Virus record (IMG/VR): IMGVR_UViG_3300013285_000475
Span: 1-42,431 of that record
DNA from: a virus
DNA length: 42,431 nt
Direction: 5' to 3' (one strand)
The position numbers and the translations under genes were made by a program. The notes beneath the pieces are model-generated. The model was given only the letters and a program-made list of their open reading frames with translations. It was not told where the DNA came from and did no database searches. This document shows positions 18,964-37,983 of the stretch, piece by piece. The stretch's first letter is position 1, and each line of letters begins with the position of its first letter.

Positions 18964-19803
18964 TCAAGTACCCCATTCATTTTTAAACAATGGAACTTGT
19001 AGTCGATCACTATAACGCCACCCTCGTTTCATTGCGGCAAGGGCAACGGATTTAGCATTGAGACTATAAACAGACTCAACACCACCGACAGGCATAAGAT
19101 ATACGTGACCTGTAAAACCCTCGTCTCTATATTCTTCCACTGCTTTTTCTGCATCTTTAATATCCTCTTCTGTTGCTACCACAAACTTTAAATATACCGT
19201 ACCATAATTTTCGTAATCACAAACAACCTGCGGTTTAATAGCATCCTTCCATGGCTCGCCACTGCATGGTAGTTTAGCACTTACTGAGAATGTTATCTCT
19301 CTTTGAGCTCTCCACCTGCTTAGATATTCTTTGAAATCTTTGGTAAGACGCATTGTACCATTTGTTTCAAAAGTGATTTCTTTAAGTCCTGCCATGCATG
19401 GTTGATCTAGCAGGCTAGGATATTGCTTTTGCCAACCAAGCAATGGCTCACCACCTGTAATTACAAGATGTTCTTCTCGCCATTCTGTATACGGAAGTGT
19501 AGCAACAATGCTCTTAGCAAGTCCTTCAACTTCTATCATAGGACTCAGGTCCTTAAATGACGGATGCCAACTTGCATAACTGTCACATCCAGTTGACACT
19601 AACGGTAATTCTTTGTAGTTGCTGTACATATGAGCAACATGAGAAATTTCTTCAGCCTCGGCACTTAGTTCGCCGCGCGGCATACCAAAACCTTGACAGG
19701 TAAAATTACAGCCAAATGTACGTAAAAATACACTAGGCACACCCATATAGCGACCTTCGCCTTGGATGGAATAAAATAATTCCGATACTTTAATTTTAAC
19801 CAT
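18964..19803 (-). CDS. queE: QueE-like 7-carboxy-7-deazaguanine synthase (radical SAM)
   Basis: A 279-residue radical-SAM enzyme that in the known pathway rearranges carboxytetrahydropterin to 7-carboxy-7-deazaguanine. Signatures: SELFYSIQGEGRYMGVPSVF at 7-26, the start of the cluster motif GCNFTC (C32, C36), a third candidate cysteine C73 in GCDSYASWH, the SAM-binding LVITGGEPLL and an ETNGT strand. Typical QueE has CxxxCxxC or a modestly expanded spacing; here 36 residues separate the second and third cysteines. The start overlaps the previous stop (TAATG). With FolE, QueD-like and DpdA-like genes in the same operon, a role in DNA base modification rather than tRNA is likely. Confidence 0.87.
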   Translation of the reverse strand: MVKIKVSELFYSIQGEGRYMGVPSVFLRTFGCNFTCQGFGMPRGELSAEAEEISHVAHMYSNYKELPLVSTGCDSYASWHPSFKDLSPMIEVEGLAKSIVATLPYTEWREEHLVITGGEPLLGWQKQYPSLLDQPCMAGLKEITFETNGTMRLTKDFKEYLSRWRAQREITFSVSAKLPCSGEPWKDAIKPQVVCDYENYGTVYLKFVVATEEDIKDAEKAVEEYRDEGFTGHVYLMPVGGVESVYSLNAKSVALAAMKRGWRYSDRLQVPLFKNEWGT

Positions 19804-19991
19804 TAGTTAGGTCCTAGATGAAATTTTGATAAAAATGCCTCAATCAAACAATTGTATTCTTGTCCTGTTGCGGGCTTAGTATAGTATACCCATGTTCCGT
19901 CTTCTTTGTCAACTACACTGGTAACATTAAATTGTGTTAAATCTGCTGATGTCCAAGTGCTAGGTACATCAATAATCTGTTTAGCCGGCAT
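19803..19991 (-). CDS. Small hypothetical protein
   Basis: A 62-residue protein (MPAKQIIDVPSTWTSADLTQ...) overlapping the cupin gene by 11 bases at its start and the QueE start at its end, hence embedded in the operon. It contains one likely beta hairpin (VVDKEDGTWVYYT) and a short C-terminal helix (CLIEAFLSKFHLG). Nothing identifies it. The tight overlaps on both sides support that it is translated. Confidence 0.6.
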   Translation of the reverse strand: MPAKQIIDVPSTWTSADLTQFNVTSVVDKEDGTWVYYTKPATGQEYNCLIEAFLSKFHLGPN

Positions 19992-20445
19992 TATCTTTCC
20001 TTTCTGCTAGATATGATTCGTAGTGGATCCATTTGTTATTAACAAGGAATCCCCATTCACGTTTGCGTGGTCCTACAAAAAACAATGTCCATGGAGTAAC
20101 ATCGGGATCTAATTCAATACGATGATATGTGCTCATTTTGCCAAATCTAAATGTTCCTGCCCCACGCCATGTTTTTACTTCGTTCATTTTTCGACCAACT
20201 GTATCAAATACAGGAGTCCATTCCCAGTATCCACCTTTGAGAATAAGGCTGGCATAGTTCCAGGGATGATCATGTACATCATCTGGATCAGATTTTAAGA
20301 ATTTATGTAGGAATACATTATATGGAAAGTTTACACGTTCTTTAAACAGAACATAATAACGTTCTAGATAAGGCTCTTGATCTGCCCGATCCATAATAAT
20401 ACGCTTACGGCCATTGCGTTCAAGCCAATTTAAAAACCATTTCAT
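19981..20445 (-). CDS. Cupin-like metal-binding protein
   Basis: A 154-residue protein with a single cupin-type beta barrel: DVHDHPWNY (H58, H60) and a second-motif histidine in STYHRIEL (H108), flanked by LILKGGYWEW and WTLFFVGPRKREWGF strands. Cupins bind a metal through HxH plus later Glu/His residues and act as dioxygenases, isomerases or plain ligand binders. Its ATG overlaps the FolE stop (ATGA). Similar cupin proteins occur in many marine phages, from memory. Lying between FolE and QueE, it could act on a pterin or deazaguanine intermediate, but that is only a guess from context. Confidence 0.7.
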   Translation of the reverse strand: MKWFLNWLERNGRKRIIMDRADQEPYLERYYVLFKERVNFPYNVFLHKFLKSDPDDVHDHPWNYASLILKGGYWEWTPVFDTVGRKMNEVKTWRGAGTFRFGKMSTYHRIELDPDVTPWTLFFVGPRKREWGFLVNNKWIHYESYLAERKDNAG

Positions 20446-21260
20446 CGGGGTGCAAACTCCTGTTGTAGTTTAATGTTGTCAAAGAATTCTTTCTTCGTAT
20501 CGCCATCTTCTTTGAAGGCACCTCTGAGCACTGTTGTCTGTGTTAATGAACTATGTGCCATAATTCCTCTATTTTCACAGCATCCATGTGTCATTTGAAT
20601 GTACACGCCTAAGTCTTCTGCTCCGGTTGCTTTGCTGATTTCTCTTGCAATATCGTTACACAGTTCTTCTTGTAAAGTACCACGACGAGCGCACCACTGA
20701 GCAATACGAGTGTACTTAGACAAACCAATGAGCTTATTTGCGGCGATGATCCCAATATAAGCGACACCAGATACAGGCTGGTGATGATGGCTACACATAC
20801 TGCGTAGTTCACTTCTAACCACAAGCATACCTTCGTAACGATCCGCCGAATCATTTGGAAACGCTGTTGCATCTGGTGCTGGGTCATATCGTCCTGCCAT
20901 TACTTCGTTAAAATACATCTTAGCCAATCGTCGAGCTGTGCCTTTGCTATTGGGATCATTCTCGCGATCAATCAACAACCGATCGAGTACTAATTCAAAT
21001 GCTTCTGCGGCCTCGTCAATTAGGCGTTCTTTATCACCTTCGTGCAAATAGTCACTGATGTTGTCGCCTGCCCAAAAACGTTTGTTATCACGTTTCATTT
21101 TAGTACGAATTACATCTGCAAAGTAGGCTTCTTCATAGCCTTTGTCAGACATATCATTGCCTGCTTTAATGTACACTTCTTTTTTCAAAGGTACATAGTT
21201 ATCTGGTTTAAATTCTGATGCAGGTTTAAGTGCAGTGTCTGGGGTAAATTTGTTTGTCAA
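20442..21260 (-). CDS. folE: GTP cyclohydrolase I
   Basis: A 272-residue FolE, which converts GTP to dihydroneopterin triphosphate. Zinc ligands are in MCSHHHQP (C156, H159) and HGCCENRG (C227); SKYTRIAQWCARR and MYFNEVMAGRY are family phrases. The frame has no ATG until residue 37, so a TTG start at 21260 with CGGAG eight bases upstream is chosen. The first ~40 residues are extra compared with the catalytic core. The protein feeds both folate and deazaguanine synthesis; with QueD-like, QueE and DpdA-like genes nearby the latter is likely. A 56-base gap separates it from the upstream dehydrogenase gene. Confidence 0.93.
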   Translation of the reverse strand: MTNKFTPDTALKPASEFKPDNYVPLKKEVYIKAGNDMSDKGYEEAYFADVIRTKMKRDNKRFWAGDNISDYLHEGDKERLIDEAAEAFELVLDRLLIDRENDPNSKGTARRLAKMYFNEVMAGRYDPAPDATAFPNDSADRYEGMLVVRSELRSMCSHHHQPVSGVAYIGIIAANKLIGLSKYTRIAQWCARRGTLQEELCNDIAREISKATGAEDLGVYIQMTHGCCENRGIMAHSSLTQTTVLRGAFKEDGDTKKEFFDNIKLQQEFAPR

Positions 21261-21316
21261 TTATAATTCTCCGATGTTAAGGCAGTGGATTGCCAATTGT
21301 TAATAGTACACTTTAT

Positions 21317-22114
21317 TTAGGTTTCTGTCAACCTCAGCAAAGTATTTTTCTTTACTGCGGCGTCAACTACATTCATATTTAGATTTAGGCTTTGAGCATA
21401 TTTTAACAATGCCGCGGTGTCTTTGGGAAAGCACATACCACCAAATCCGAATGCTCCATCTGGGCCAGGAACCTGCATATGACTGTTGCCAATTCGTTTA
21501 TCGGCTGTAACCATATGAGCAATCTTATCGTAGTCTAATCCCGATGCTAATGCTACTTTATATAATTCATTCATAAAAACAACTTTAGTTGCTAAGAAAG
21601 AATTAATAGCATATTTGGCCATTGCGGCTTCACCTATAGAGCAATAAAAAACAGATGATAATTCAGTTTGTGATTCTCTAATAATACGTTCTGCTTGATA
21701 CCTGTGAGCAGATACTTTGCCTCCAATAAACGCAAATGTACCTTGAACATAATCTGCAACAGCATTTGCCGCAGTTAAAAATTCTGGAGCATGAACTAGG
21801 TTAGGATATTGATCGTTAAGGCGATTATAAACATCTGGCGGCGCGGTGCATTTACTAATAATGGTACCGTTATAGTCAATAGCACTTAGTTTAGATAACA
21901 CATCTTCTAAAATACTTGTGTCACAATTACCGTCATCACCTTGCGGACTTGGAACACAAACAAATATACCATCACATGACGCTAAATCTTCATATGTATT
22001 AGTATACCCTTTAGCAGGGTCTAATAGTACCAATGGATGTGGACCACCGTACTTATCAAATGCCATTCTAATAGCGTGACCTACAAAACCTAATCCAATA
22101 ATTCCAACCTTCAT
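21317..22114 (-). CDS. Truncated UDP-glucose/GDP-mannose dehydrogenase family protein
   Basis: A 265-residue NAD-dependent nucleotide-sugar dehydrogenase, which would oxidise C6 of a UDP- or GDP-sugar to the uronate. Seen: dinucleotide fold GIIGLGFVG (4-12), VCVPSP (52-57), APEFL (E111), AKYAINSFLA (K167, N171) and catalytic C228 in GGMCFPKDT. Family members are usually over 400 residues; here the C-terminal UDP-binding domain is missing and the chain ends about 35 residues after the catalytic cysteine. All main catalytic residues remain. Its start overlaps the glycosyltransferase stop (ATGA), so the two are probably coupled and may supply and transfer a sugar. Confidence 0.87.
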   Translation of the reverse strand: MKVGIIGLGFVGHAIRMAFDKYGGPHPLVLLDPAKGYTNTYEDLASCDGIFVCVPSPQGDDGNCDTSILEDVLSKLSAIDYNGTIISKCTAPPDVYNRLNDQYPNLVHAPEFLTAANAVADYVQGTFAFIGGKVSAHRYQAERIIRESQTELSSVFYCSIGEAAMAKYAINSFLATKVVFMNELYKVALASGLDYDKIAHMVTADKRIGNSHMQVPGPDGAFGFGGMCFPKDTAALLKYAQSLNLNMNVVDAAVKKNTLLRLTET

Positions 22115-23214
22115 TTTATTCTTTCTAATAATAGTTTAGCAGAGAAAAAATTGCTAGTTAGATCCTCTGTTTGTTTACGTAATTGTGGGAGTCTTTGCTC
22201 GTAGTAATCCATATGAGTCATAATAGCACGGCACAAATCGGGACGATATACATTGTACGCATCCCAACTTTCGGTCCATTTGCTTTCATATTTAAAAAGG
22301 TCGTAATACATTTCACTATATGACAAACGATCTGGAACCATAGGAATAGCATCTACAATGGCACCTTCGTAGCAACCAATTCCTAATGTTTCTTGTAAAC
22401 TACAACTGAATACTATTTTTGCCTCACCTAACAAATTATGATATTCATTTTTAGTTAACTCTTGATCTTGACAAACAACAAACTCATATTGAGGTAAATG
22501 TGTAGCCAAGTCACGGAAAATTTCAACCTGTTTCTCAGGAGCAATTCGATGTGGAAAAACAATGAGATTACGCTTGGGCATATTCTTGTACATGGTTAAT
22601 GTATTATCCATATACTCCATAGGCCAACCTGTACGAACTATTTTAGGAAATCTTCCTTCAAATACTTCACGTAGATCTTCTTCAAACCAGGGATTTTCCG
22701 CAACTAGTCCGCTATTGAGCAAGTTACGCATAAACAACTCAATATGGAAATCTGTAGCAAAGTAGTTGTGATCAAAAGCATGGTAGAAACTCCTCTCAGC
22801 ATTTCTAACCCAGGGTTTATCTCCAACAAGACGTCCAAGGAAATCTTGCGGGTCATAACTACCAGCATGCCACAGTCCATGTGTAGTTACTGGAATATTC
22901 AGTAACTCACTCATGTACTTTAGATTTATGATACCAGGATGCCAAGCATCAGTAAAGATAAAGTGATCGCCGGAATGAACGGCTCCGTCACAGAATAAAC
23001 GACCCAAAGTTTCAACTTGACGAGACTTGTATATATTAGTACCGCCAAAGTTAAGAAACGCTCCTGGAGTGGTAGCACTAGGTATATCTGTAGGGCCGCA
23101 TATAACTTGAACATTGTGTCCTGCCTTTCGTAAGAGATTAGGTACATGGGACTTCCATTGTCCCGTGTACCTTGTTTCAACTGATTCTAAATCAACTAAA
23201 AAGACCTTAGCCAT
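22111..23214 (-). CDS. GT-B fold glycosyltransferase
   Basis: A 367-residue protein with the two-domain look of GT4-like glycosyltransferases. The C-terminal half has VFPHRIAPEKQVEIFRDLA (a donor-site strand-helix beginning with the basic RIAPEK) and SCSLQETLGIGCYEGAIVDA, where E-x7-E type glutamates contact the nucleotide-sugar. The N-terminal half contains FTDAWHPGIINLKYM and HGLWHAG. The acceptor is unknown. The coupled UDP-sugar dehydrogenase and the surrounding DNA-modification genes make a modified DNA base a candidate acceptor; surface glycans are an alternative. Starts directly at the stop of the 73-residue gene (TAATG). Confidence 0.75.
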   Translation of the reverse strand: MAKVFLVDLESVETRYTGQWKSHVPNLLRKAGHNVQVICGPTDIPSATTPGAFLNFGGTNIYKSRQVETLGRLFCDGAVHSGDHFIFTDAWHPGIINLKYMSELLNIPVTTHGLWHAGSYDPQDFLGRLVGDKPWVRNAERSFYHAFDHNYFATDFHIELFMRNLLNSGLVAENPWFEEDLREVFEGRFPKIVRTGWPMEYMDNTLTMYKNMPKRNLIVFPHRIAPEKQVEIFRDLATHLPQYEFVVCQDQELTKNEYHNLLGEAKIVFSCSLQETLGIGCYEGAIVDAIPMVPDRLSYSEMYYDLFKYESKWTESWDAYNVYRPDLCRAIMTHMDYYEQRLPQLRKQTEDLTSNFFSAKLLLERIK

Positions 23215-23435
23215 TATCTATATTTTTTGTATTTGTTGTCAAATCTTGGTTTAAAATCTCCGCTATTTCTACGAGAGAAATATCTATACTCTTGCGACCT
23301 ATACAAGTCGGCAGGATTAAAGGGGAGTAGATTAAACCTACAATAATCTAACCATGCGTCGAGGTCATCGAAGACCTTCTCCACTTCAGGTTTCATACGG
23401 AGAGTTTTCTGAACGTAGGCAGGAATATTCGCCAT
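23214..23435 (-). CDS. Small conserved-looking hypothetical protein
   Basis: A 73-residue protein with MKPEVEKVFDDLDAWLDYCR and FNPADLYRSQEYRYF followed by a basic, aromatic C-terminus (RFDNKYKKYR). I recall similar small proteins in T4-like marine phages without a function. It lies between the QueD-like gene (11 bases away) and the glycosyltransferase (one-base overlap). The basic tail could bind nucleic acid, but there is no direct evidence. Confidence 0.62.
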   Translation of the reverse strand: MANIPAYVQKTLRMKPEVEKVFDDLDAWLDYCRFNLLPFNPADLYRSQEYRYFSRRNSGDFKPRFDNKYKKYR

Positions 23436-23446
23436 TTTTAATTTCC

Positions 23447-23836
23447 TTAATATTTGATAAATGAACCATTTTCTCCATCTTCGGAGACTTCAATCCAGAT
23501 TTCACGATCTGGATACTTTTGTGAAATAGTGCCATACAATTCGTCTGACATCATTTCGCAACTTTTATAATCTAGTTTAAGTATACTATCTTTGTAAAGA
23601 TTTTCCAACCAGCGTTTGAATTGAATGAACTCAATATCGCGATCGTTATGTACAACGCTAATCCATACTCTAAAATGAAAAATATGACGATGCGGAGTAC
23701 CTAGGAATGATACATCGTATTCATCGCCTGTTGCTAGATTAGGATCAGTAGCCGCCGCTGGATAGCAATGGATACCTTCTTTTTGGAAAGTAGTCCAAAT
23801 CATTTTATTTGGACGGATGTCTTGTTTGATAATCAT
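23447..23836 (-). CDS. QueD-like 6-pyruvoyl-tetrahydropterin synthase family protein
   Basis: A 129-residue T-fold protein. GIHCYPAA (H23, C24) and PHRHIFHFRVWI (H49, H51) would supply the three zinc-binding histidines of the QueD/PTPS family, and IEFIQFKRWL matches the GxxxDFxxLK-type strand-helix. The C-terminal EIWIEVSEDG parallels the family's ...v.Et strand. In QueD the catalytic cysteine lies four residues before the second zinc histidine; here that position is not cysteine, and C24 next to H23 is the only nearby candidate. In the pathway it would make carboxytetrahydropterin from the FolE product. The family call is fair; catalytic competence is less sure. ATGA overlap with the upstream gene. 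Confidence 0.65.
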   Translation of the reverse strand: MIIKQDIRPNKMIWTTFQKEGIHCYPAAATDPNLATGDEYDVSFLGTPHRHIFHFRVWISVVHNDRDIEFIQFKRWLENLYKDSILKLDYKSCEMMSDELYGTISQKYPDREIWIEVSEDGENGSFIKY

Positions 23837-24429
23837 AATGTTTTAAAGTGTTGTTTAAATGTGTCTCTGGTTGCGGCAATATTTTTTATTTTTTTCATAG
23901 CAGTGTTTGGAATACGCAGTCGATAAGAGTTGCTATGACCGTAACCATCTAATACTACCCATCTATTTTTGCTTTTAATTTCTTTAGGTAATTTATCTTT
24001 TGACTTTATTTTGGATTCTAATTGTTCTCGGACATCTGTATAACCTTCTCGTAGATTTTGTTGAATAATATCGATATCCATGTCGATCAATTTTACATCT
24101 GTTACTTCTAAAAAATCAGAATCCCATGTAATTTGATTTTGATTTTGTGCTTTATGATAAAATCTAGTATCTTCCCAATTTTTAGCATTGATAATGTTAG
24201 AGATAGTCATTGATCCCACAGTATGACTAGCGTTACTTCTTAGTTTCCTACTTTTTATATCAATGCGGAGTTCGGGTAGATCAACCAACCCGTTAGGATC
24301 AACATGATGACCCTTGTCTATCATCTCTCTCTCAAAATATTGACCGGCTGAACAATCCTTAGTAAAATTAGGGATTGACTCACCTTTTTCTATATTTTTT
24401 TTAATTTTACATACTCTCGGTTTTTTCAT
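23833..24429 (-). CDS. Putative PD-(D/E)xK-like nuclease in modification operon
   Basis: A 198-residue basic protein. Residues 28-62 follow the restriction-endonuclease core: a helix with E33 (GQYFEREMIDKG), a short strand region with D50, and D57-I-K59 in LRIDIKSRK, i.e. an acid followed by D-x-K. Next comes SNASHTVGSMT, a plausible DNA-contact loop, and a basic C-terminus. Spacing between D50 and D57 is short for the family, so the call is tentative. It has ATGA overlaps with the QueD-like gene downstream and the 175-residue gene upstream. Such a nuclease could cut unmodified host DNA while phage DNA is protected; that is inference. Confidence 0.45.
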   Translation of the reverse strand: MKKPRVCKIKKNIEKGESIPNFTKDCSAGQYFEREMIDKGHHVDPNGLVDLPELRIDIKSRKLRSNASHTVGSMTISNIINAKNWEDTRFYHKAQNQNQITWDSDFLEVTDVKLIDMDIDIIQQNLREGYTDVREQLESKIKSKDKLPKEIKSKNRWVVLDGYGHSNSYRLRIPNTAMKKIKNIAATRDTFKQHFKTL

Positions 24430-24953
24430 ATTATCTCATCTCCTGTATACTGATCCCAATCTGTGAACTTGTCGGTTGATAAAAGGTCATGTAGCCTATG
24501 GCACCACACGCCCGGGTTAGTAGCGGCAAATCCTTTGTCGTCTATCTTTATTGTAGCATTATATCCTAGTTGTTGTAAATAGGGCAATTTTACCGAAACT
24601 TGCGGAATAAATTTTCTGTTTTCAGTTAATCCAGATTCTAAAAGACCTTCTGTTTCTTTTACATCAAAGTCTAAGGTACACCAGTAACCTTTATTCAAAC
24701 AGGTAGTGATCATATCTTCCCAAAGTCTCCAAGTAACGGCATCATTAACACCGCCTGTACGGAAACTTTGATTAGCACCAAAATAAATGTGTTTGACATT
24801 CTCAGTTTTAGCCATAGACAACACTTCTTGTACATTTTGCACACCTACTACAAATAGAGTTTCCATTCCGTATGCAGGAGTATGTTCCACTTCTACTCCT
24901 GCAAAGAACACCACATTTTCTTCTATTTGACCGTCTTCGTATTCTCTTTTCAT
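24426..24953 (-). CDS. Hypothetical protein coupled to the DpdA-like gene
   Basis: A 175-residue protein of unknown family. It opens with a beta-rich segment (VVFFAGVEVEHTPAYGMETLFVVGVQ), then KHIYFGANQSFRTGG, an aromatic helix (WRLWEDMITTCLNKGYW) and CTLDFDVKE; the alternating strands and helices suggest an alpha/beta barrel or sandwich. No catalytic signature is clear. ATGA overlaps on both sides link it with the DpdA-like protein upstream and the nuclease-like protein downstream. From memory, proteins with the HIYFGANQSF phrase occur in T4-like phages without a known role. The constant neighbourhood makes a part in base modification plausible. Confidence 0.65.
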   Translation of the reverse strand: MKREYEDGQIEENVVFFAGVEVEHTPAYGMETLFVVGVQNVQEVLSMAKTENVKHIYFGANQSFRTGGVNDAVTWRLWEDMITTCLNKGYWCTLDFDVKETEGLLESGLTENRKFIPQVSVKLPYLQQLGYNATIKIDDKGFAATNPGVWCHRLHDLLSTDKFTDWDQYTGDEII

Positions 24954-26506
24954 GCTTTTACCTCTTCCTCTAAGGTTCTTAGATTATCGTCATCTTGTTG
25001 ATCAAACAGTGGTGTTCCGTCTGGAGCACGTTTCAAAAGAGGTTCGTCTTCAATAGTAAACAAATTATTAAATTCGTTTTGTGCAGGACCGCCTTGTAGT
25101 CGAGCACCTTCTAAACTACGTAAGAAAGATAAACCATCTTCAATCATTTGAAATGCTTCTGCTTTTGTTTTGGTATTAAACAAATCTTCGATAAAACTAG
25201 CAAAATATAAAATTCTACGTGGAACCCAGTCGCTATACTCTTTTTCTTTCTTACCTTCGATGCCTGACAATCTCCAATTAAGTTTGTGCTTGGCAATTTC
25301 AATGTCCATTAATTGTTGAGCACGTTGTACGGCAACAATATGACATTCAACATTATGTCCCATCATTAGAGCATACGCAAAACTATCCCAACTAGTTTTA
25401 CCTTCTTTACCGATCTTGTTTAACATACCTGGAGCATAATGACAAATGTCTGCCATTGTTAATCTGCGTCCGACTTCGCTTTCGAACGGGAATGGTATGT
25501 TGCTTCCAGCAAGGGCTTTATTGTCTGGGGCTTTGTCCATAATAACACTCCACCTTTTTGGACTATGTTGGGCGTTGGTATAGACAAGTCCGTGCGCTGT
25601 TGCAATGAACGGTGAGGCGCAGTCAAAAGATATGGTAAGTTCTTCATTAATATGTTTCCTAATTTGACGTTGAATTAAAGTTAGATAGCATGACCAATCT
25701 AACTGTGCTGTACCCAAGAAGTGGATCCAGTTTTTGCTCGTTAGCAAACCTTCTTCTCTCATCGTCATTAGACGTTTAAGAGTAATATCCATTTTACACA
25801 TATTAGCACCACCAAAGGCCCAACCTTCTGCTTCTTTACCTGCATAAGGACCTTTTGGATCGCTAAATTCTTTAACACCATTGTACCATTTTTCAGCAGT
25901 ATCCCAATCACCACCTTGTAGTACATTAAGCCATTTAGTTTGGCCTAAACGATTATCTAAAAAATACTTGTTATTAAACCGTGTTTTTTCTAAACAATCT
26001 TCAAATGTTTTTAACCCTGTTTTAGGACTATGAATATGGTCACATGCCCAAGTAGGAACGTCAAGCATCATAGACCAGTCAGCAGTTAATTCTAACCACT
26101 CTAAAATCTGTTGACGTGTTTTGTTAGCACTTGCACCTTCAAAGTCTAACCAATCAAATTTAAGAACACCTTTACCAATCTGATATCCACCGGAGTCGCC
26201 TAAAATCATTGTGTTATTACGATCACGTTGTTGGATCATTGACTCTTGTGTAAGACTCTTTTGTAGATCTAATTGTGCGTGACCTGCTGAATACAAACCA
26301 TACTTGTAGGTAAAATATCCTTGTTCTGGATTAAGAAAATTCATACCCTCAACACCGCGATCAAAACCTGCGGGGATACGATCGTCTGCAATAAACTTTT
26401 CTAAACGCTGTTTGGCAACATACGTACTGTAGAAACTACTAATGGCTGGCAAATAGACAGCATAGTCTTTCTGTAATGGGGTTAGGTTAACTGGTGGTTT
26501 TATCAT
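24950..26506 (-). CDS. dpdA: DpdA-like DNA 7-deazaguanine transglycosylase
   Basis: A 518-residue member of the tRNA-guanine transglycosylase superfamily. Motifs in TGT order: LGDSGGYQIGKG (catalytic-type D104), MLDVP (D150), NVLQGGDW (194-201), GWAFGGANM (228-236), LGTAQLD and SFDCASP (nucleophile-type D295). Bacterial TGT has a CxCxxC...H zinc site after this point; it is not evident here, as in phage DpdA proteins that swap guanine for a deazaguanine in DNA. The chain is longer than tRNA TGT (about 375 residues). Its operon also encodes FolE, a QueD-like protein and QueE. The DNA target is inferred from the family and context. Confidence 0.85.
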   Translation of the reverse strand: MIKPPVNLTPLQKDYAVYLPAISSFYSTYVAKQRLEKFIADDRIPAGFDRGVEGMNFLNPEQGYFTYKYGLYSAGHAQLDLQKSLTQESMIQQRDRNNTMILGDSGGYQIGKGVLKFDWLDFEGASANKTRQQILEWLELTADWSMMLDVPTWACDHIHSPKTGLKTFEDCLEKTRFNNKYFLDNRLGQTKWLNVLQGGDWDTAEKWYNGVKEFSDPKGPYAGKEAEGWAFGGANMCKMDITLKRLMTMREEGLLTSKNWIHFLGTAQLDWSCYLTLIQRQIRKHINEELTISFDCASPFIATAHGLVYTNAQHSPKRWSVIMDKAPDNKALAGSNIPFPFESEVGRRLTMADICHYAPGMLNKIGKEGKTSWDSFAYALMMGHNVECHIVAVQRAQQLMDIEIAKHKLNWRLSGIEGKKEKEYSDWVPRRILYFASFIEDLFNTKTKAEAFQMIEDGLSFLRSLEGARLQGGPAQNEFNNLFTIEDEPLLKRAPDGTPLFDQQDDDNLRTLEEEVKA

Positions 26507-30803: not shown

Positions 30804-32447
30804 TTAGCGTTTGAATACAGGTCCGCCGAGTAAATTAACTCCGCCACCTTTCTTTTTCTTCTTGCCGCCTAAGGGCATTGATACACTGGCAATAGAGCCA
30901 GAACTAGTCCCACCTGCTGATCCATCTTCTTTTAAGTTAGCAATATACTGTTCTCCTAACATGATCAGTTGTTGCATCTCTTCAATGCTTTCACAGTTCC
31001 AACGGCGTAAGGCTAGGGCTTTGGGAGTAGGTTTACCATTGGGCTTTTTCATTGGACCTTTATTGCCGCCCATTCTAGCACAGAATGATTTTCGACGGTT
31101 AGCCGCTTTGCTACCTGGCTTTAGTTTGCTGGGTTTGGTAGTAACTGCTGTTTTTAATTTACTACCAGGATGTTCCCGGCGATAAGCATTGACTGCCTTT
31201 TGACTCAGACCGTTGGTCTTGTCATGATGATTAACTTTGTTCCAATCTTCTTTGGCCAAACGCTCGCCAGTCTTTTTGCTGTACTTGCCTGACTCTTTTT
31301 TGGCAATGGCAATGGCTGCCTGCTGTGCGCCAGCGCCTTCTGTTTTTGCTGTTTTGGCCGCGTCTTTCCAGGCCTGTGCTGTGGGTGCTTTGGGACTTGA
31401 TGCTGGTCTACTGGTGCCAGCGGCCTTGCGTTTGTTCACATTGTAGTAAAGACCGTGTTTCTCACCTTCCGCCACACCTTTTGAAAGATGTTTTGCATCC
31501 CCGGCTTTTTCCCATTTATCCCACATTGCTTTACCGGCACCAGTACGAAGACCACTTGGCTCAATTTTAAATCCCAACATTCTAAGATAAGCATACATAC
31601 CGGCAGCAACACCTTTTCCACGATAAGCCGGATGCACATAAGTCTGTCCACTAACCATTCTACCACCTGACCCATAAGGCATGAACACCGTGTCGGCTAT
31701 TGATTTCTTACCATCGTATGCTGTCATTTCTATCTCGCCCTCATCTGATCCAGTTAACGCCTTAGCATAGTATACATAATCGCCTATTTGTTGTTTATGG
31801 TTTAGTCCTGCAGGATTTATCTTACCTTCCGCCACACCTTGTGATTCGTTAGGCACACAGTTGCGAACCTGTCCACCATTCTTGCCCTTCTTGGTACCTG
31901 CGGCATGATGCCCTGGCCAGCACTTAGTAAAGCCATTTGAATCCTTAGCACCTTTCTTGATCTCATTCAAGTTTCCGTGTGTTTGGCACATACCGCAATC
32001 TGGACAAGTCATTTCCATTGTCATCATACTTTCCGTGTGTTTCTTCTTGCCAGCACAGTGAGCCTTTTGACTAAACCCTTTAGGGTGACTACAGTTGATT
32101 GAACTCTTATACTTTTGTGTCCATTTTTCATTTAACGCGGCTTCATCCATGGCTTTCTTAAAACCCTTGCCTGGTACCCAACCTGCTACAGGTTTGCATT
32201 TGCATTTGCCCGGAGCACAGGTACAGTTCTTCATGCCACATTGCATACAACGTTTTTCTTCGCCTTCCGCTACACCTTGCTTCTCTTTTTCTTGTTTGGC
32301 CTTCCAATCTTTTTCAAACTCTGCTTTAGCCTGATCAGCACGTTGACGACTAGCAGTAGACTTAGCCTGCTGGCGTTCCCAAGCACCTTGTAGTTTTACA
32401 GCCGCGCTTTTTCTTTTAGTTTCGGTAATAATTTCAAATGCTCTCAT
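30804..32447 (-). CDS. Multidomain virion-internal protein with GNAT domain and VAE|G sites
   Basis: A 547-residue protein built from modules. Residues 1-9 (MRAFEIITE) resemble a capsid-targeting peptide. GVAEG occurs at 58-62, 204-208 and 324-328. Between the first two lie Cys-rich metal-site-like segments (CMQCGMKNCTC at 67-77, CPDCGMC at 148-154) and a CWPGHH...RNCVPN module. Between the second and third lies a GNAT acetyltransferase-like domain with VHPAYRGKGVAAGMYAYL (271-288). The C-terminal 200 residues are Lys-rich with a SFCARMGGNKG segment and a Gly/Lys tail. T4 prohead protease cuts after (L/I)-x-E, so VAE|G may be processing sites that release each module in the capsid. ATGA overlap with the upstream gene. 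Confidence 0.7.
   Translation of the reverse strand: MRAFEIITETKRKSAAVKLQGAWERQQAKSTASRQRADQAKAEFEKDWKAKQEKEKQGVAEGEEKRCMQCGMKNCTCAPGKCKCKPVAGWVPGKGFKKAMDEAALNEKWTQKYKSSINCSHPKGFSQKAHCAGKKKHTESMMTMEMTCPDCGMCQTHGNLNEIKKGAKDSNGFTKCWPGHHAAGTKKGKNGGQVRNCVPNESQGVAEGKINPAGLNHKQQIGDYVYYAKALTGSDEGEIEMTAYDGKKSIADTVFMPYGSGGRMVSGQTYVHPAYRGKGVAAGMYAYLRMLGFKIEPSGLRTGAGKAMWDKWEKAGDAKHLSKGVAEGEKHGLYYNVNKRKAAGTSRPASSPKAPTAQAWKDAAKTAKTEGAGAQQAAIAIAKKESGKYSKKTGERLAKEDWNKVNHHDKTNGLSQKAVNAYRREHPGSKLKTAVTTKPSKLKPGSKAANRRKSFCARMGGNKGPMKKPNGKPTPKALALRRWNCESIEEMQQLIMLGEQYIANLKEDGSAGGTSSGSIASVSMPLGGKKKKKGGGVNLLGGPVFKR
31465..31480 (-). repeat. VAEG-site DNA repeat, copy 1
   Basis: The plus strand CCTTCCGCCACACCTT encodes, on the minus strand, the GVAEG junction at residues 324-328 of the 547-residue protein. 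The same 16 bases recur at 31825 and, with one change, at 32263. Confidence 0.75.
31825..31840 (-). repeat. VAEG-site DNA repeat, copy 2
   Basis: Identical to copy 1 over 16 bases. It encodes the GVAEG at residues 204-208 that separates the Cys-rich module from the GNAT-like domain. Confidence 0.75.
32263..32278 (-). repeat. VAEG-site DNA repeat, copy 3
   Basis: CCTTCCGCTACACCTT, one base different from copies 1 and 2. It encodes the GVAEG at residues 58-62, between the N-terminal helix and the Cys-rich module. Confidence 0.72.
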
Positions 32448-32812
32448 TTCTTTTTATTCCAATCTGATACCGGACTTACTGTATGCGTATCGTCCGGCTC
32501 AACACTTTTTGACCATGGAGTGACTTCTTTACTGTCTGAAGGAATAGTGTTCATAGCCGCTTTTAACATTTTATGTTCTTTTTCAGTATAGGGATGATGT
32601 GTATTATATTTTTCCACCCATGATGCCTCGTCCATATCAACAGGTTTTTCGCTTTCGCCGTCCGCCATGGCAGTTGCCATCATTAGTCTATTTATGTGAT
32701 ATACACGATCATAGCCACCAACATCGCGTGAACGCATAACACCCTGTTGAACATTAGCATGATGTTTGTGCATTTTGCCTTTGGTTTCAGCCATGAATTC
32801 TTTTGCTCGCAT
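32444..32812 (-). CDS. Putative virion-internal protein
   Basis: A 122-residue protein beginning MRAKEFMAETKGK, almost the same opening as the 547-residue protein that follows (MRAFEIITETKRK). This resembles T4 internal proteins, whose first ~10 residues target the capsid and are cut after Glu. The rest is His/Lys-rich and helical with QQGVMRSRDVGGYDRVYHIN, DEASWVEKYNTHHPYTEKEH and a polar tail. From memory, proteins with the VMRSRDVGGYDR phrase are common in marine phages with no function known. Packaging into the capsid is an inference from the N-terminus and neighbours. Confidence 0.65.
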   Translation of the reverse strand: MRAKEFMAETKGKMHKHHANVQQGVMRSRDVGGYDRVYHINRLMMATAMADGESEKPVDMDEASWVEKYNTHHPYTEKEHKMLKAAMNTIPSDSKEVTPWSKSVEPDDTHTVSPVSDWNKKK

Positions 32813-32813
32813 A

Positions 32814-33275
32814 TTATCTACGGGGTTCGCCTCTTATTGCTGTTAACACACTATTTAAATAGTCTGCGGCTTTAGTTATCTTGCTTTGTTGCCAAGCATC
32901 AAGCCCATCTTGTTCACTACGTTGTTTAATAATATCAAATAGTTTTTTGGCGTTGATATAAACACTTTTTAGTTCGCTTGTAGCCATTGCAATTTCGTGG
33001 TCCTCTGATACATTATCGGATTGGCCAAATGGAGATACAGGAACCCATTTAGTTCCTTGTTTTTGTATCCATTTTTTAGGATCAAATTTACTGCGAATAA
33101 TTCCTGCTACTTTAAGAGCATCTTCGATACTATCTCTATATCCCATACTACGTGCTTTTGGTTCGTCAAGATTATGAACCATACGTTGTTTAACTTTACC
33201 GGAGGTATTGTCATATATGTACCAAAGATTCGATTCGTCGTTTTGATATGCTTCAAATAATTGTTCTATTTTCAT
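32814..33275 (-). CDS. Putative virion-internal protein
   Basis: A 153-residue protein. The ATG at 33275 overlaps the Dps stop as ATGA and has AAAGG upstream; a TTG at 33299 is rejected. The N-terminus MKIEQLFEAYQND has the LFE|A pattern that a T4-type prohead protease would cut. The middle (NLWYIYDNTSGKVKQRMVHN, MGYRDSIEDALKVAGIIRSK) looks like a small alpha/beta domain; the C-terminus is helical (ITKAADYLNSVLTAIRG). Not recognised beyond that. Confidence 0.65.
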   Translation of the reverse strand: MKIEQLFEAYQNDESNLWYIYDNTSGKVKQRMVHNLDEPKARSMGYRDSIEDALKVAGIIRSKFDPKKWIQKQGTKWVPVSPFGQSDNVSEDHEIAMATSELKSVYINAKKLFDIIKQRSEQDGLDAWQQSKITKAADYLNSVLTAIRGEPRR

Positions 33276-33706
33276 GATATACTTGCCTTTAACATCCAAC
33301 CGTGCTTGCGATGCGCATCCATGCGCTCTGCTAAGAAATTACTAAACCCATGTTCTCCCGCGGCCTCAGCACGATCATATACCATCTTTAAAATCTTGAT
33401 TATTTTTTCATTGTCTTGCAGTAGTTCAGCAACCATACCTTCTTTAGTAGGCAATTGATTTTCGTCTGCCACTTGAGTTAGCATACTAAATCTACTTAGG
33501 CTAGCAGGAACAAATGATCCTAAACTGCGAATTTTTTCTGCAAACTCGTCAATACTTCCGTAAACTTCTTCATAAATTCCGCCAAACAGTTGATGATATT
33601 CTAAGAAATCAGGTCCTGTAACATTCCAGTGAAAGTTATGCGCTTTCAGATAAAAACTGAATTCACTGGCAAAGGCTATTTTACTTGAGTTGAGCAGGTC
33701 TTCCAT
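33272..33706 (-). CDS. Dps/ferritin-like protein
   Basis: A 144-residue four-helix protein. AHNFHWNVTGPDFLEYHQLF (22-41), then EEVYGSIDEFAEKIRSLG, matches the Dps signature with ferroxidase-type residues: His near 23 and 26 and Asp/Glu in FLEYHQ and IDEFAEKI. Dps dodecamers bind DNA and store iron while consuming peroxide. Bacterial Dps is ~160 residues; this one is slightly shorter and lacks a long basic tail. In the phage it could protect DNA in the infected cell or in the capsid. It sits among putative virion-internal proteins, five bases from the 1298-residue gene. Confidence 0.85.
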   Translation of the reverse strand: MEDLLNSSKIAFASEFSFYLKAHNFHWNVTGPDFLEYHQLFGGIYEEVYGSIDEFAEKIRSLGSFVPASLSRFSMLTQVADENQLPTKEGMVAELLQDNEKIIKILKMVYDRAEAAGEHGFSNFLAERMDAHRKHGWMLKASIS

Positions 33707-33710
33707 AATG

Positions 33711-36700
33711 TTATTTATTTTCTAAAAGGCGTATAGCACGAGACATTTCTCGTTCCCAAGCCTCGCCTATTTCTACATGTTTATGTTTGGCTTCTTTTTT
33801 CTTGTTCTTGTGTGCGCCAGCGGCACCACCACCAATTCCAGCCATAGCATTTTTGGCTACAGGATTGCGTGGCTTAGGAGGTTCGATGCCTTTTGGTTTT
33901 TTAGTGTACGTCATAGCCTTAACTCCACGCTTGTGTTCGTCTAAATCTTCATTTGCAGGAACACAGTTAGGTACTGTACGCTTACCTTTCTTCTTCATAC
34001 CAATCTGTTTGTAGCCTTTCCAACATGCTTCATCTAGGCTTTCCATAGGAACTTTAACACCACGCTTCTGGAGTTCTTGTTGTAACGCCTGTAGTTTGTT
34101 CGGACTTCGAGAAATAGCATTACGTATATCACCTGCTATTTTGCTCGGTAGTTTTCTCAGCACATCATTTACTATGTCTTCTGCTTGACTACGTTGTTGG
34201 CCTATTGCAGGATCTTTAGGAGTCTTAGGAGCCTTTTCAACATCATCGTCATCTTCGTAATCGCTTAATTCTAAATCACTTAGGTATTGTTCGTATTCTT
34301 CTCTATTGTGCATCCAACGACGAGCATTGTTGGCTAAAGGAGCATAATTTAACTTAGCACCTATTTCAGCAAGTATATCTGGAAGTTCTTTACTGATAGC
34401 ACTAAAGCCTTTAGCACTTTCAATTTTGCCTTTGATTTCTGTACCTCGTAAAAATTGTTGTAAAGGTACTGTGATCTTTGTATTCTGTTTACTTAGGTCA
34501 TACAATTCATTTTGTAGTCTATTAAAATAGAATGTTTGGAACCAACGACTACCAACTCCGCCTGCAACCATACCAAACCCTTTTAGATCACCGTGGCTAT
34601 CGTAATAACGTTTTGCCATATATTTCAGTGTTTCGTATAGAGAAGTAATTGGTTCTGCAATATCAGTTGCTATAGTTCTTAATGTACCTTTAAGTTCGTT
34701 CGACTCGTCTAACTCAATACTTTCAGCGGCACCTCCAACTAGGTCTCCTGCTCTTGCTGGACGATTCTTACTTGGTCCTGTGTTCTTCCATTGCCCTGCC
34801 GGCCCTAATTTGTTTTTCTTAGATCCTGTAAATGTGCTCTTTGACAGCATTGCTTCTGCTACTGGTTGTGGTTGCATTGGTATCTCCGGTTCTACTGTAT
34901 TTTTAATTCCCATACCTTTTCGAGTAGTATTCATTAGATGTTTAATCCAATCTGTTGATAATTTTTTAGCACCAAAATTGCCGCCGTTAAATGCATCAGT
35001 CCATACGGCTAATTGTTGTTTTGGTTGATCGTTCTTTAAACTGTTGCGTAGTTGTGTAAAACTTACACCAGCACCACGTGGAGTTGGTTCTAGTTTAACA
35101 TCCACATGTTCGTATCCTTGGAACTTATTAACAGCATTCATTAATGCATTAGCAATACTCATTCCTTTTTGATCTTCACCTACCATAATAATAATATTAT
35201 CATATTTAGGTGGTTGGCCAGGACGGGGTTGTATTAATTCGTGTTTAATTTTTAATGTTAATGTTCCGCCCTGTTCTGTAACGGCACTAATATTGTTTGC
35301 ATATTGCGGATATAGCATGTGCCATGTTTTAACTTTTTCAGAAACAGGTATGGGATCGTCTTTACCAACAGCATTACCGATAAACAAGTAAGGATCGCCA
35401 CCGACTTCTTTAGCCTTGTTAATAGTTAAGGCAAATAATTCTTGATGTCCTTTATGTCCAGCAAAACTACCAATAGCCACTACAGCAGTTTTACCGCCTG
35501 CCTGTTGTCCGCCGGACAATCGTCTTTGTTGTGCGGCCTGTTTAGCAGCCATCTTTGCGGCTGTTTTGGTAGCAACAACATCTTTGAATAGATCAGTAGT
35601 AACTTTAACAGGACCGTTACGACTGTTTATAATAATACCTTCGTAATCTTTGCCTAACATATCTCTACCAACTATGTTAGGATGTGATATAATAATATCT
35701 GCTAACTTTTCTTTCATTGGTTGAATAACTTGGTTGGCCTCTTGTTTGGCTGTACGTTTGTTACTCAATATCATATCTCGTAACGCTTCAAGATTTACCA
35801 AAGGATCAATAATTCCTGTAGCATCAATATCCCCGTTAGTAGTTAAACTGTTATCTATAAAAACAGTTGAACCTATTTGTTTTAGACTTTTTAGTTCTTG
35901 AACAATTTGATCACTATCTGGATGTTGCTCGCCTGTGCTTGAAACTTGAGCAAAGAATGGAACCAATGCTAATTTGACACCGTTTGGAAGTTTATTGTAC
36001 TTGACACTTACAAATTTAAGTTTGCCATCAATTTCTTCAGCCATAGGTACGTATAATACTTCTACATGTACCTTAACATCTTTTAAAAAGTCAGGACCTA
36101 ATTTTTTATCAATACCGGCAATAGTTGTAATGACCTGATCAAACAATCCGTCATAATTTTGAGCACGTTCTAGTTGTCCGGGATCAGTAATCCCTTGAGA
36201 GTTTGCCCATGCCATACTAGCACCGGGTTCAAATATAGGACCTAATTTTTGTGGTTCGTAAAATGGTCTACCTGCTGAGTCTTTACCAAAACGTCCACCT
36301 AATCCGTCCACCTTGACGTTCATAGATACATTACCAAGATTCAGTTTACCGTTGCTACCTTTTAGTTCGTCTAATAAATCTAAAAAATCTATGTCCTTCA
36401 TTTTTTGTAAATGAACAACACCTTTGCGTTTACTTTGAACTACTTCTCCTGTTTCGTCTGCTTCCCTCAATGACTCTGCTGTTCTTTTGTAAGTGGAATA
36501 ATAAGTTTGAACCATCTGTGTTAAGTTAGAGGGCGGAGTCATTTTTAATCCTGCAAGCATCTTACTCACTGCGGCTTCTTTCTCACTAGCATCTCGTTCT
36601 GGATCGTTTTTATATAAACCCTGTGCCGCCGGTCCATACAACTTAATTAAAAACCCTTGTAATACTGTTTCTTTTTCTTCTGGGCGTAATACAGTATTCA

Positions 36701-37607
36701 TAATTTCTAAGATACCTGTAAATGACCAAAATTTAGGAACCAGTTGTTTAACCTGTTGTGGAGTTATTCTATCTCCAAATAGGGTAGTTAAAATACTTGT
36801 TACATCATTATTATAACCACTAGGAGGTAATGCCTTCATAACAGGCAAACCGTCTCTAATCATTGGTTGACCAGTTTGTGGATCTACAACCGGTTGGTAT
36901 TTGGCACGAAGCCCGCCACCTTCCTTTGAACTAACGGCAAAACTAAACATGTTATCTCTTACAGGTGCTTTGCCTTTAGTAGTATAGAATTCTTTACTGC
37001 TAAGTGTTCCCAATGCTTGAATAATCCATTTATGGAATACACCTTTTATTCCCTGTTGAAGATCTTCCCAAGCACTAGAGTGACTGAATTTAGACCAGTC
37101 AGTGGGTTTACTGTTTTCGTAATCTACAAATTCCAAGTCAATTTGTACTTTGATAGGAGGATCTTGAAATTCCCAAAGGCTTAAAAACTGTTCATTGCCT
37201 TTATCATAGCCTATTAATGTAGCACCACTTATTTGTTTGCCCTGCATTGCCGTTAAGAACTGCTGTAAATCAGGTATAAGTGTTTTATCAACTTGTGTAT
37301 CTATGTCACCTACCCTAGGTTTAACTCGAGTAAATTCTTCATCCGGAATATTGGTATCAAAGAAGTGTAGACTTGATCCACTTAAAAATTCTCTATTTTG
37401 TAATACCTGGGCATTCCATAATTCTTTTTTACGAAGTTTTTTAAATGAACTATTAATCCCTAATAGCAGTTTGTTTAACAAGGGAACCATGAAACCTCGA
37501 TTGTGAACCTGAAGATTTATAGCATCTGCTGTTGCACCACCGATGGTGGCATTACCACCTTCTGCTATTGAGGAGTTTGTTCTTTTGAATATTTCGTTAA
37601 GGAACAA
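33711..37607 (-). CDS. Polyprotein with three nucleotidyltransferase-like domains
   Basis: A 1298-residue protein. Domain 1 (~30-230): polymerase-beta-type nucleotidyltransferase pattern SGSS (76-79), GDIDTQVD (D101, D103) and VQIDLEF (D157). Domain 2 (~395-680): ligase-type pattern K432-V-D-G, HVEVLYV (E516), YEGIII (E656, G657) and KVTTDLF (668-674). Domain 3 (~705-900): cytidylyltransferase/NMNAT pattern GSFAGHKGH (H718, H721) and VSFTQLR (848-854). The C-terminal 400 residues include helices, an acidic stretch (1116-1124) and a CWKGYKQIG...VPNCVP module (1195-1216). N-terminus MFLNEIFKR...SIAEGG and QPVAEA (E918) resemble prohead-protease sites. Probably packaged and processed; substrates unknown. 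In phages only the third domain is usually named (cytidylyltransferase). Confidence 0.72.
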   Translation of the reverse strand: MFLNEIFKRTNSSIAEGGNATIGGATADAINLQVHNRGFMVPLLNKLLLGINSSFKKLRKKELWNAQVLQNREFLSGSSLHFFDTNIPDEEFTRVKPRVGDIDTQVDKTLIPDLQQFLTAMQGKQISGATLIGYDKGNEQFLSLWEFQDPPIKVQIDLEFVDYENSKPTDWSKFSHSSAWEDLQQGIKGVFHKWIIQALGTLSSKEFYTTKGKAPVRDNMFSFAVSSKEGGGLRAKYQPVVDPQTGQPMIRDGLPVMKALPPSGYNNDVTSILTTLFGDRITPQQVKQLVPKFWSFTGILEIMNTVLRPEEKETVLQGFLIKLYGPAAQGLYKNDPERDASEKEAAVSKMLAGLKMTPPSNLTQMVQTYYSTYKRTAESLREADETGEVVQSKRKGVVHLQKMKDIDFLDLLDELKGSNGKLNLGNVSMNVKVDGLGGRFGKDSAGRPFYEPQKLGPIFEPGASMAWANSQGITDPGQLERAQNYDGLFDQVITTIAGIDKKLGPDFLKDVKVHVEVLYVPMAEEIDGKLKFVSVKYNKLPNGVKLALVPFFAQVSSTGEQHPDSDQIVQELKSLKQIGSTVFIDNSLTTNGDIDATGIIDPLVNLEALRDMILSNKRTAKQEANQVIQPMKEKLADIIISHPNIVGRDMLGKDYEGIIINSRNGPVKVTTDLFKDVVATKTAAKMAAKQAAQQRRLSGGQQAGGKTAVVAIGSFAGHKGHQELFALTINKAKEVGGDPYLFIGNAVGKDDPIPVSEKVKTWHMLYPQYANNISAVTEQGGTLTLKIKHELIQPRPGQPPKYDNIIIMVGEDQKGMSIANALMNAVNKFQGYEHVDVKLEPTPRGAGVSFTQLRNSLKNDQPKQQLAVWTDAFNGGNFGAKKLSTDWIKHLMNTTRKGMGIKNTVEPEIPMQPQPVAEAMLSKSTFTGSKKNKLGPAGQWKNTGPSKNRPARAGDLVGGAAESIELDESNELKGTLRTIATDIAEPITSLYETLKYMAKRYYDSHGDLKGFGMVAGGVGSRWFQTFYFNRLQNELYDLSKQNTKITVPLQQFLRGTEIKGKIESAKGFSAISKELPDILAEIGAKLNYAPLANNARRWMHNREEYEQYLSDLELSDYEDDDDVEKAPKTPKDPAIGQQRSQAEDIVNDVLRKLPSKIAGDIRNAISRSPNKLQALQQELQKRGVKVPMESLDEACWKGYKQIGMKKKGKRTVPNCVPANEDLDEHKRGVKAMTYTKKPKGIEPPKPRNPVAKNAMAGIGGGAAGAHKNKKKEAKHKHVEIGEAWEREMSRAIRLLENK

Positions 37608-37608
37608 A

Positions 37609-37983
37609 TTAATCCCCTAACTGGAATTCGCCTTTGAGTATTTCTTTGTTACACTCGTTAGCAAATAATTCACACATATCGTGGCGGAATTTTTTATGGA
37701 ACATCTTTATAGGATCTTCCATCATTTTATTATGATGATAGAATTCCATACATCCTTTAGTTACTAAAGGTAACCAAATTGAGTTTTCATGTTCTTTAGT
37801 AGGATTACGATGGATTTGTTGAGCAATAGGAATGAATTGCTCTTTATGGAGTTTATCGTTGTGAAGAATGAACTCGTATATTGCTTCCGCAAGTTCGGCT
37901 TCTTCGTATTTCTTTTTATGTTTTTCGTCTTCTTTTTTAGCGCCAGCGGCGTCATAAGACCCAAAAAATTCGTTTAATAGCAT
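37609..37983 (-). CDS. Putative virion-internal or accessory protein
   Basis: A 124-residue helical protein opening with MLLNEFFGSYDAAG, close in style to MFLNEIFKR of the 1298-residue gene that follows after one base. Residues 16-35 are strongly charged (KKEDEKHKKKYEEAELAEAI), and the rest is His/Lys/Cys-rich helices (FYHHNKMMEDPIKMFHKKF, CELFANECNKEIL). No family recognised. The leader contains GGAGTATAC and AGGGG. Confidence 0.6.
   Translation of the reverse strand: MLLNEFFGSYDAAGAKKEDEKHKKKYEEAELAEAIYEFILHNDKLHKEQFIPIAQQIHRNPTKEHENSIWLPLVTKGCMEFYHHNKMMEDPIKMFHKKFRHDMCELFANECNKEILKGEFQLGD

Follow-up and report, generated by a model that had tools for sequence, protein, structure and literature searches.

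A viral protein with three nucleotidyltransferase domains

We analysed a 42,431-base stretch of viral DNA from IMG/VR (record IMGVR_UViG_3300013285_000475; hereafter the window), whose T4-like gene content includes a ClpA-like protease, a family-B DNA polymerase and structural proteins of the tail and virion, and we focused on a single large open reading frame (ORF) on its minus strand. A preliminary description, made from the letters alone, had claimed that this ORF carries pol-beta-type, ligase-type and cytidylyltransferase motif sets, in this order, and had suggested an enzyme for nucleotidylation or nucleic-acid repair that is delivered with the virion. As a single query against PDB and Pfam, the protein gave no useful match. 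Upon searching viral contigs, we found 142 relatives of its first domain (80 kept) and 76 of its second, from which hidden Markov models (HMMs) were built. By computation, the chain contains three domains with intact active sites and a conserved association, together with a capsid-targeting sequence (CTS) and cleavage motifs of the prohead-protease type. The features of the ORF are as follows (NTase, nucleotidyltransferase; arrows mark predicted cuts).

33711..37607, minus strand: whole ORF, 1298 aa, 143.6 kDa, pI 9.1, TTG start
37560..37607, minus strand: predicted CTS, residues 1-16, (M)FLNEIFKRTNSSIAE, ending at the gp21-type site IAE↓GGN
36462..37559, minus strand: Pol-beta-type NTase domain, residues 17-382, predicted mature fragment of 41 kDa
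37371..37379, minus strand: GSS 77-79 (hG[GS] motif), G and S invariant in 68 sequences
37299..37307, minus strand: DID 101-103 (DxD), invariant in 68
37137..37145, minus strand: QID 155-157, with the third catalytic Asp (D157), invariant in 68
36450..36473, minus strand: predicted prohead-protease site in the NTase-ligase linker, AESLRE↓ADET, cut after E382
35538..36422, minus strand: RNA-ligase-type domain, residues 396-690 (alignment A5, 61 sequences)
36303..36314, minus strand: KVDG 432-435, ligase motif I with the predicted nucleotidylated Lys432; K, D and G invariant in 61
35595..35645, minus strand: YEGIII 655-660 (motif IV) and VKVTT 667-671 (motif V; K668); E, G and K invariant in 61
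35013..35492, minus strand: HxGH adenylyltransferase domain, residues 706-865, with HKGH 718-721 and VSFTQLR 848-854; matches phrog_3041 (E 5e-9)
34842..34871, minus strand: predicted prohead-protease site QPQPVAE↓AMLS after E918, at the start of the tail
33714..34853, minus strand: variable tail with a helical segment (~960-1190), a two-cysteine basic module CWKGYKQIGMKKKGKRTVPNCVP (1195-1217) and an amphipathic C-terminal end

The residues that had been assigned to the pol-beta-type set (GS 77-78, DID 101-103, and D157 within QID) and to the ligase-type set (KVDG 432-435, E516 within HVEVLY, and EG 656-657) all lie where they were claimed to be. In the NTase domain, the G-S pair, the D-x-D motif and the third D showed no variation among 68 sequences (alignment A4). 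In the AlphaFold model of this domain (pLDDT 94.9), the GS precedes a short helix, after which one strand bears the DxD and another, further along the chain, bears D157, as in Pol-beta enzymes. Foldseek with this model returned DNA polymerase beta (2van) as the top PDB match (probability 1.00, E 5e-3), with Pol mu, poly(A) polymerases and AsfvPolX at lower rank, and the domain matched phrog_19290 (E 2e-16). Motifs, strand placement and fold matches thus agree in placing the hG[GS], DxD and third Asp of the Pol-beta NTase superfamily on a Pol-beta palm fold.

No variation was seen among the 61 ligase-domain sequences at the motif-I residues K, D and G (KxDG), at the Glu of motif III, at the E-G pair of motif IV or at the Lys of motif V. 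The model of this domain (pLDDT 95.2) has a strand on either side of KxDG and carries the motif-IV EG and the motif-V K on the strands that follow, as ligases do, so that motifs I, III, IV and V of the ATP-grasp/RAGNYA ligase superfamily are all present on a ligase fold. For both KVDG and DxD, AlphaFold placement and fold search agreed with nucleotidyltransferase sites; a position outside such sites was the outcome that the preliminary description had named as its refutation. The top Foldseek matches were RNA ligases from T4 (RNA ligase 1, E 2.5e-4), an archaeon and Naegleria, with a probability of 1.00. Membership of the Pfam families of Rnl1 and Rnl2 was ruled out, as PF09414 reached only an E of 0.016 in 2 of the 61 members and PF09511 matched none, and an hhalign comparison to Rnl1 aligned motifs IV-V alone (P 0.022). 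The fold matches of the NTase and ligase models, with modest TM-scores of 0.2-0.4, are best taken as superfamily-level evidence.

These matches bear on a reading that we regard as rather unlikely, in which the same polyprotein would be packaged and act on the phage's own DNA, the NTase filling gaps and the ligase sealing nicks in the injected genome, as African swine fever virus (ASFV) does for its genome with PolX and a ligase. Pol beta, Pol mu and AsfvPolX are indeed among the best NTase matches, AsfvLIG and DNA ligases appear among the ligase matches, and some gene cassettes of the family hold a candidate nuclease-like protein (see below), whereas RNA ligases rank above DNA ligases in the fold search and the ligase module of ~300 aa was modelled without an additional OB-fold domain.

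The third motif set was also found in place, with HKGH and VSFTQLR at the expected residues, but its attribution to a cytidylyltransferase had to be revised. HxGH is present in 59 of 59 non-redundant fused proteins, and the S/T-x-x-R motif is visible in all of them. A profile of HxGH relatives against PDB sequences matched NMNAT (1f9a, E 8e-9) and PPAT (5ts2, E 1.6e-8) with similar scores, and stand-alone relatives matched CTP_transf_like (PF01467). The H/TxGH and S/TxxR motifs, combined with a Rossmann-like NMNAT/PPAT profile, assign the domain to the HxGH adenylyltransferase superfamily; judged by its profile, it is closer to NMN and pantetheine-phosphate adenylyltransferases than to true cytidylyltransferases.

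Predicted capsid targeting and processing

The stretch that precedes the NTase consists of 10-30 variable residues (e.g., MLLRELF..., MKTFKEYLVE) with [LIVF]xE directly before GGN. P1 was E in 67 of 68 non-redundant sequences, while P3 was hydrophobic in 68/68 (L in 37, I in 25, V in 5, F in 1), and homologues that lack a CTS (Moby, X1, Va1) begin M-GGN, i.e., at the predicted cut. For the NTase of Campylobacter phages CP220 and IBB_35 (AEF56792 in the latter), the predicted start is MKLSELMFILE↓GGN. In T4, L/I-X-E is the motif after which gp21 cleaves, and 10 N-terminal residues of IPIII are enough for targeting (PMC9026906); a propeptide that ends in L/I-x-E before the mature start, as in T4-type internal head proteins with a CTS, is also found here.

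Similar sites recur between the predicted enzymes. The linker between NTase and ligase carries one in 52 of the 59 non-redundant proteins, compared to a mean of 7.9 and a maximum of 15 after shuffling, and the remaining 7 have close variants such as LREE or LTEQ. Sites of this type were rarer than in shuffled sequences inside the three domains (9 vs 48, 18 vs 50, and 6 vs 21) and commoner than expected in the tails (126 vs 47), and none was found in the ligase-HxGH linker. The linker site predicts that the chain would be cut into at least two enzymes. The window is a 42-kb fragment without genes for the gp21 protease and gp23. Records of relatives contain an S77 (gp21-family) protease in 11 of 17 and gp23 in 12 of 14, with gp23 propeptides that end in LxE↓S, as LAE↓S or LSE↓S, or in LxE↓A (e.g., ...YLAE↓SATAG), such that a gp21-family protease and a predicted processed gp23 occur in the same genome. 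In L006-type phages, the NTase and ligase genes both begin with MK(T/S)FKEYL. Together with the CTS and the linker and tail sites, this gives the fused protein the look of once separate, CTS-bearing internal proteins that now form a single processed chain.

Relatives of the third domain connect the family to virions. HxGH relatives were found in 495 phage records, for the most part of T4-like cyanophages, and the HxGH HMM matches S-CREM2 gp154 (MKNFSSFLTE↓A; 5.7e-24) and S-SCSM1 gp91 (MKSFLQFLKE↓A; 2e-29), both recorded in published work as virion proteins detected by mass spectrometry (MS). For HxGH proteins of Synechococcus T4-like phages, the predicted start is MKxFxxFLxE↓A. As the CTS-type N-terminus, the prohead-protease sites, gp21 and gp23 in relatives' genomes, and the MS-detected relatives of the third domain all point in the same direction, the proposed virion delivery gains support, and we consider it very probable that the protein is a packaged and processed polyprotein, for which we infer packaging, cleavage and ejection. 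It could instead be a late cytoplasmic enzyme, with the N-terminal peptide and LxE sites being a leader and flexible linkers of no protease meaning. This would fit the MS evidence, which covers HxGH relatives, and the absence of a CTS in some relatives. We nevertheless find it highly improbable, given the near-invariant P1 and hydrophobic P3, linker sites far above shuffles yet depleted in the domains, the same motif in gp23 of the same genomes, and the presence of CTS-bearing relatives in virions.

Association of the three domains

In 59 non-redundant fused proteins, NTase, ligase and HxGH domains follow one another in the order first described. Conservation, fold and motif placement alike back three distinct nucleotidyltransferase domains in one chain. 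The trio is also found unfused and adjacent in six contigs (L006, L093, L095, L097, L099 and L100) and half-fused in others (NTase then ligase in L047, L052 and L068; NTase-ligase then HxGH in L049). Xanthomonas phage X1 and Stenotrophomonas phage Moby carry it as adjacent genes, and Vibrio and Campylobacter phages have the NTase plus a ligase-HxGH fusion. Among 50,697 records of cultured phages, 38 contain the NTase (15 Campylobacter, 6 Vibrio, 16 Stenotrophomonas and 1 Xanthomonas), and the ligase was found in the same 38, with equal counts by group (1, 21, 16). The fused protein was not found in this collection, where no record covers 80% of the query. A cellular origin was unsupported: the single genome_contigs match lies on a 128-kb contig with phage-like genes inside a metagenome-assembled genome. 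Fusion, operon arrangement and co-occurrence together provide strong evidence for a shared task of the three domains.

The tails are variable. That of the window protein matches phrog_9737, phrog_4359 and phrog_727, and tail modules are swapped between relatives. By eye, relatives' tails include a lysozyme with LysM (L014, 7992-12806) and a SpoT/MESH1-like HD domain (L077, 1799-7564), which resemble swappable effector modules. S-CREM2 gp160 contains the two-cysteine CWxGY...NCV module of the window tail and is, by coordinates, in the published virion list.

Such tails raise the question of whether the chain is instead a polyvalent effector, in which three activities that serve host takeover in unrelated ways (RNA ligation, the nucleotidylation of host proteins, and the provision of NAD+ or coenzymes by the NMNAT-like domain) would be bundled only by shared capsid delivery. 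The clearly unrelated tail effectors seen by eye fit this proposal, as do published virion NMNATs, which are regarded as NAD enzymes, and polyvalent proteins, described in PMC5512222 as injected multi-enzyme chains that include Pol-beta NTases. Yet the trio stays together in at least five arrangements and in four named phage groups, its NTase and ligase share the 38 records noted above, and it also occurs as adjacent genes that have no CTS at all. As this repeated association argues for a joint pathway, we judge the effector proposal unlikely.

Some loci deviate from the common arrangement. In L002 and L003 (4094-8010), a CTS-GGN Pol-beta-like NTase gene precedes one that joins another NTase to HxGH and a window-type tail; no ligase was detected in these two records, which carry a different packaged set. 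Possible PD-(D/E)XK-like nuclease genes lie near the cassette in L011 (6749-7693), L010 (7008-8012), L008 (11827-12621), L006 (2135-2986), L184 (7039-8352) and L205 (2842-4161), and the gene adjoining HxGH in S-SCSM1, gp90, recorded as a virion protein, looks PD-(D/E)XK-like by eye. A common fourth partner of this kind (Moby, X1, Va1, L006, L184, cyanophages), recognised by eye only, was unsupported as a family by Pfam and PHROGs, and no such nuclease was identified beside the window gene.

A candidate end-repair set, probably carried in the head

We suggest that the window ORF encodes a virion-packaged, protease-processed polyprotein that holds a nucleic-acid end-repair set, with RNA as the likeliest substrate, a reading in which our confidence is evenly poised. 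The polyprotein would be synthesised late, alongside the head proteins, and be drawn into the prohead by its N-terminal CTS, where a gp21-type prohead protease would cut after IAE↓GGN and after the linker LxE site. This would yield a Pol-beta-type nucleotidyltransferase, a ligase-HxGH pair that is kept joined, and tail modules, all of which would be ejected together with the DNA. In the cell, the ligase (through Lys432-AMP) may join broken ends, the NTase may supply missing 3' nucleotides, and the HxGH domain, whose part in repair is hypothetical, may make or use an adenylylated product. The likeliest substrate would be RNA of the host or the phage, in particular tRNA that abortive-infection nucleases have cleaved, RNA being favoured over DNA because the top ligase fold matches are RNA ligases.

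By analogy with phage RNA repair, in which RlaP NTases are predicted to restore nucleotides ahead of ligation (PMC7824862), RNA-end repair is a plausible hypothesis for the function, to which we assign somewhat less than even weight. As the NTase is not RlaP by HMM, this comparison can mean only that it works like RlaP, not that it is one. More tentatively still, the protein may be part of a complete end-repair kit that is carried in the head, split into separate enzymes by the capsid-maturation protease and injected early enough for repair to start ahead of phage gene expression; the cyanophage virion HxGH proteins would be parts of this kit and DUF6267 its ligase.

Several observations weigh against the proposed RNA end repair from within the virion. 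The modest TM-scores leave the choice between RNA and DNA specificity unsettled. The NTase domain has no Pfam match across its 68 members, and identity with RlaP (PF10127) was ruled out by the absence of an HMM match in the window protein, the 68 domain members and 11 genomes. A kinase or phosphatase for end healing is absent from the cassette, and the HxGH domain, for which a repair pathway offers no clear role, is the part least accounted for. The CTS is absent from the NTase of the Stenotrophomonas, Xanthomonas and Vibrio relatives, and packaging is hence not universal. Virion MS evidence comes only from the HxGH-domain relatives S-CREM2 gp154 and S-SCSM1 gp91, and the authors of the cyanophage virion work warn of possible co-purification.

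Relation to known systems

The window family shares traits with three kinds of protein that are already known, namely internal head proteins, polyvalent proteins and RNA repair enzymes. With the T4 internal head proteins (IPI-III, Alt), it shares a short N-terminal propeptide, LxE-type cleavage, a gp21-family protease (in relatives' genomes) and predicted ejection with the DNA, whereas the protein to be carried is itself a polyprotein of three nucleotidyltransferases, in which additional cleavage sites separate enzymes and tail modules. Like the polyvalent proteins of Iyer et al. 2017 (PMC5512222), it combines several unlike catalytic domains in one chain, predicted to be injected, with shuffled tail modules, but the order of its trio is fixed, the trio is also found as an operon, and protease sites of the T4 type separate its parts. 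The NTase-ligase-HxGH trio was not found in the searched passages of that paper, and a Pfam scan of the window protein alone found none of the polyvalent hub domains MPTase, ArdC-N, DdrB-ParB, ART and MuF. Phage RNA repair systems (T4 Rnl1/Rnl2, RlaP; PMC7824862) likewise associate an RNA-ligase-fold ligase with a Pol-beta-superfamily NTase, whereas the window domains match neither known family by HMM and come with an HxGH adenylyltransferase and predicted virion packaging. A separate T4-type Rnl1 is retained in the four named phages with the trio. In the open-access literature searched, we did not find a polyprotein in which three nucleotidyltransferases occur as a fixed set with prohead-protease sites separating them.

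The cyanophage virion proteins S-CREM2 gp154 and S-SCSM1 gp91, described as NMNAT-like or cytidylyltransferase proteins, share the homologous HxGH domain and the CTS with the window protein, and have virion detection by MS of their own. They were published as NAD-metabolism or regulatory enzymes, with no mention of a CTS or a link to a ligase or NTase, whereas in the window the domain is fused to both. Two genes from the MS-detected S-CREM2 protein, gp156 (L207, 4513-5226) has a Pol-beta NTase-like motif, GGNANYNYTPYSDIDLHLVVD. In phage Syn19, a DUF6267 gene with KWDG and HEGFV motifs precedes an HxGH gene, phrog_455 is a fusion of both, and DUF6267 is followed by CTS-HxGH in 17 of 19 related contigs. 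The KWDG and EGF of DUF6267 (PF19782) resemble ligase motifs I and IV, and the motif registers agree, but the profile comparison (hhalign P ~0.01) is only suggestive and leaves ligase homology unproven.

An unannotated giant ORF thereby becomes a family with a testable life cycle of targeting, cleavage and injection, which suggests that the prohead protease may act as a polyprotein protease for injected enzymes. The virion 'cytidylyltransferases' of marine T4-like phages could likewise be read otherwise than as NAD enzymes, and a role as a ligase can be hypothesised for DUF6267. Should RNA prove to be the substrate, the set would be a pre-loaded answer to anticodon-nuclease defences, active before any phage gene expression.

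Neighbouring genes in the window

Conservation of neighbouring genes was counted over 92 loci.

37609..37983, minus strand: upstream neighbour, 124 aa, with the CTS-like start MLLNEFF; upstream in 64 of 92 loci
30804-32447, minus strand: 547-aa protein with the CTS-like start MRAFEIITE and repeated GVAE↓G linkers between modules; relatives in 71 of 92 loci
32444-32812, minus strand: small protein with the CTS-like start MRAKEFMAE↓T, conserved in 46 loci
32814-33299, minus strand: small protein with the CTS-like start MKIEQLFEA
18964-26506, minus strand: QueE-like and GTP-cyclohydrolase-like proteins, and a TGT/DpdA-like protein (24950-26506) by eye

The modules of the 547-aa protein are CxxC-rich, CWPGHHAAGTKK..NCVP, GNAT-like HPAYRGKGVAAGMYAYL, and RRKSFCARMGG...RRWNC, and, with its linkers, it looks like another internal polyprotein cut by the prohead protease. 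The genes at 18964-26506 point to a possible 7-deazaguanine modification of DNA or tRNA.

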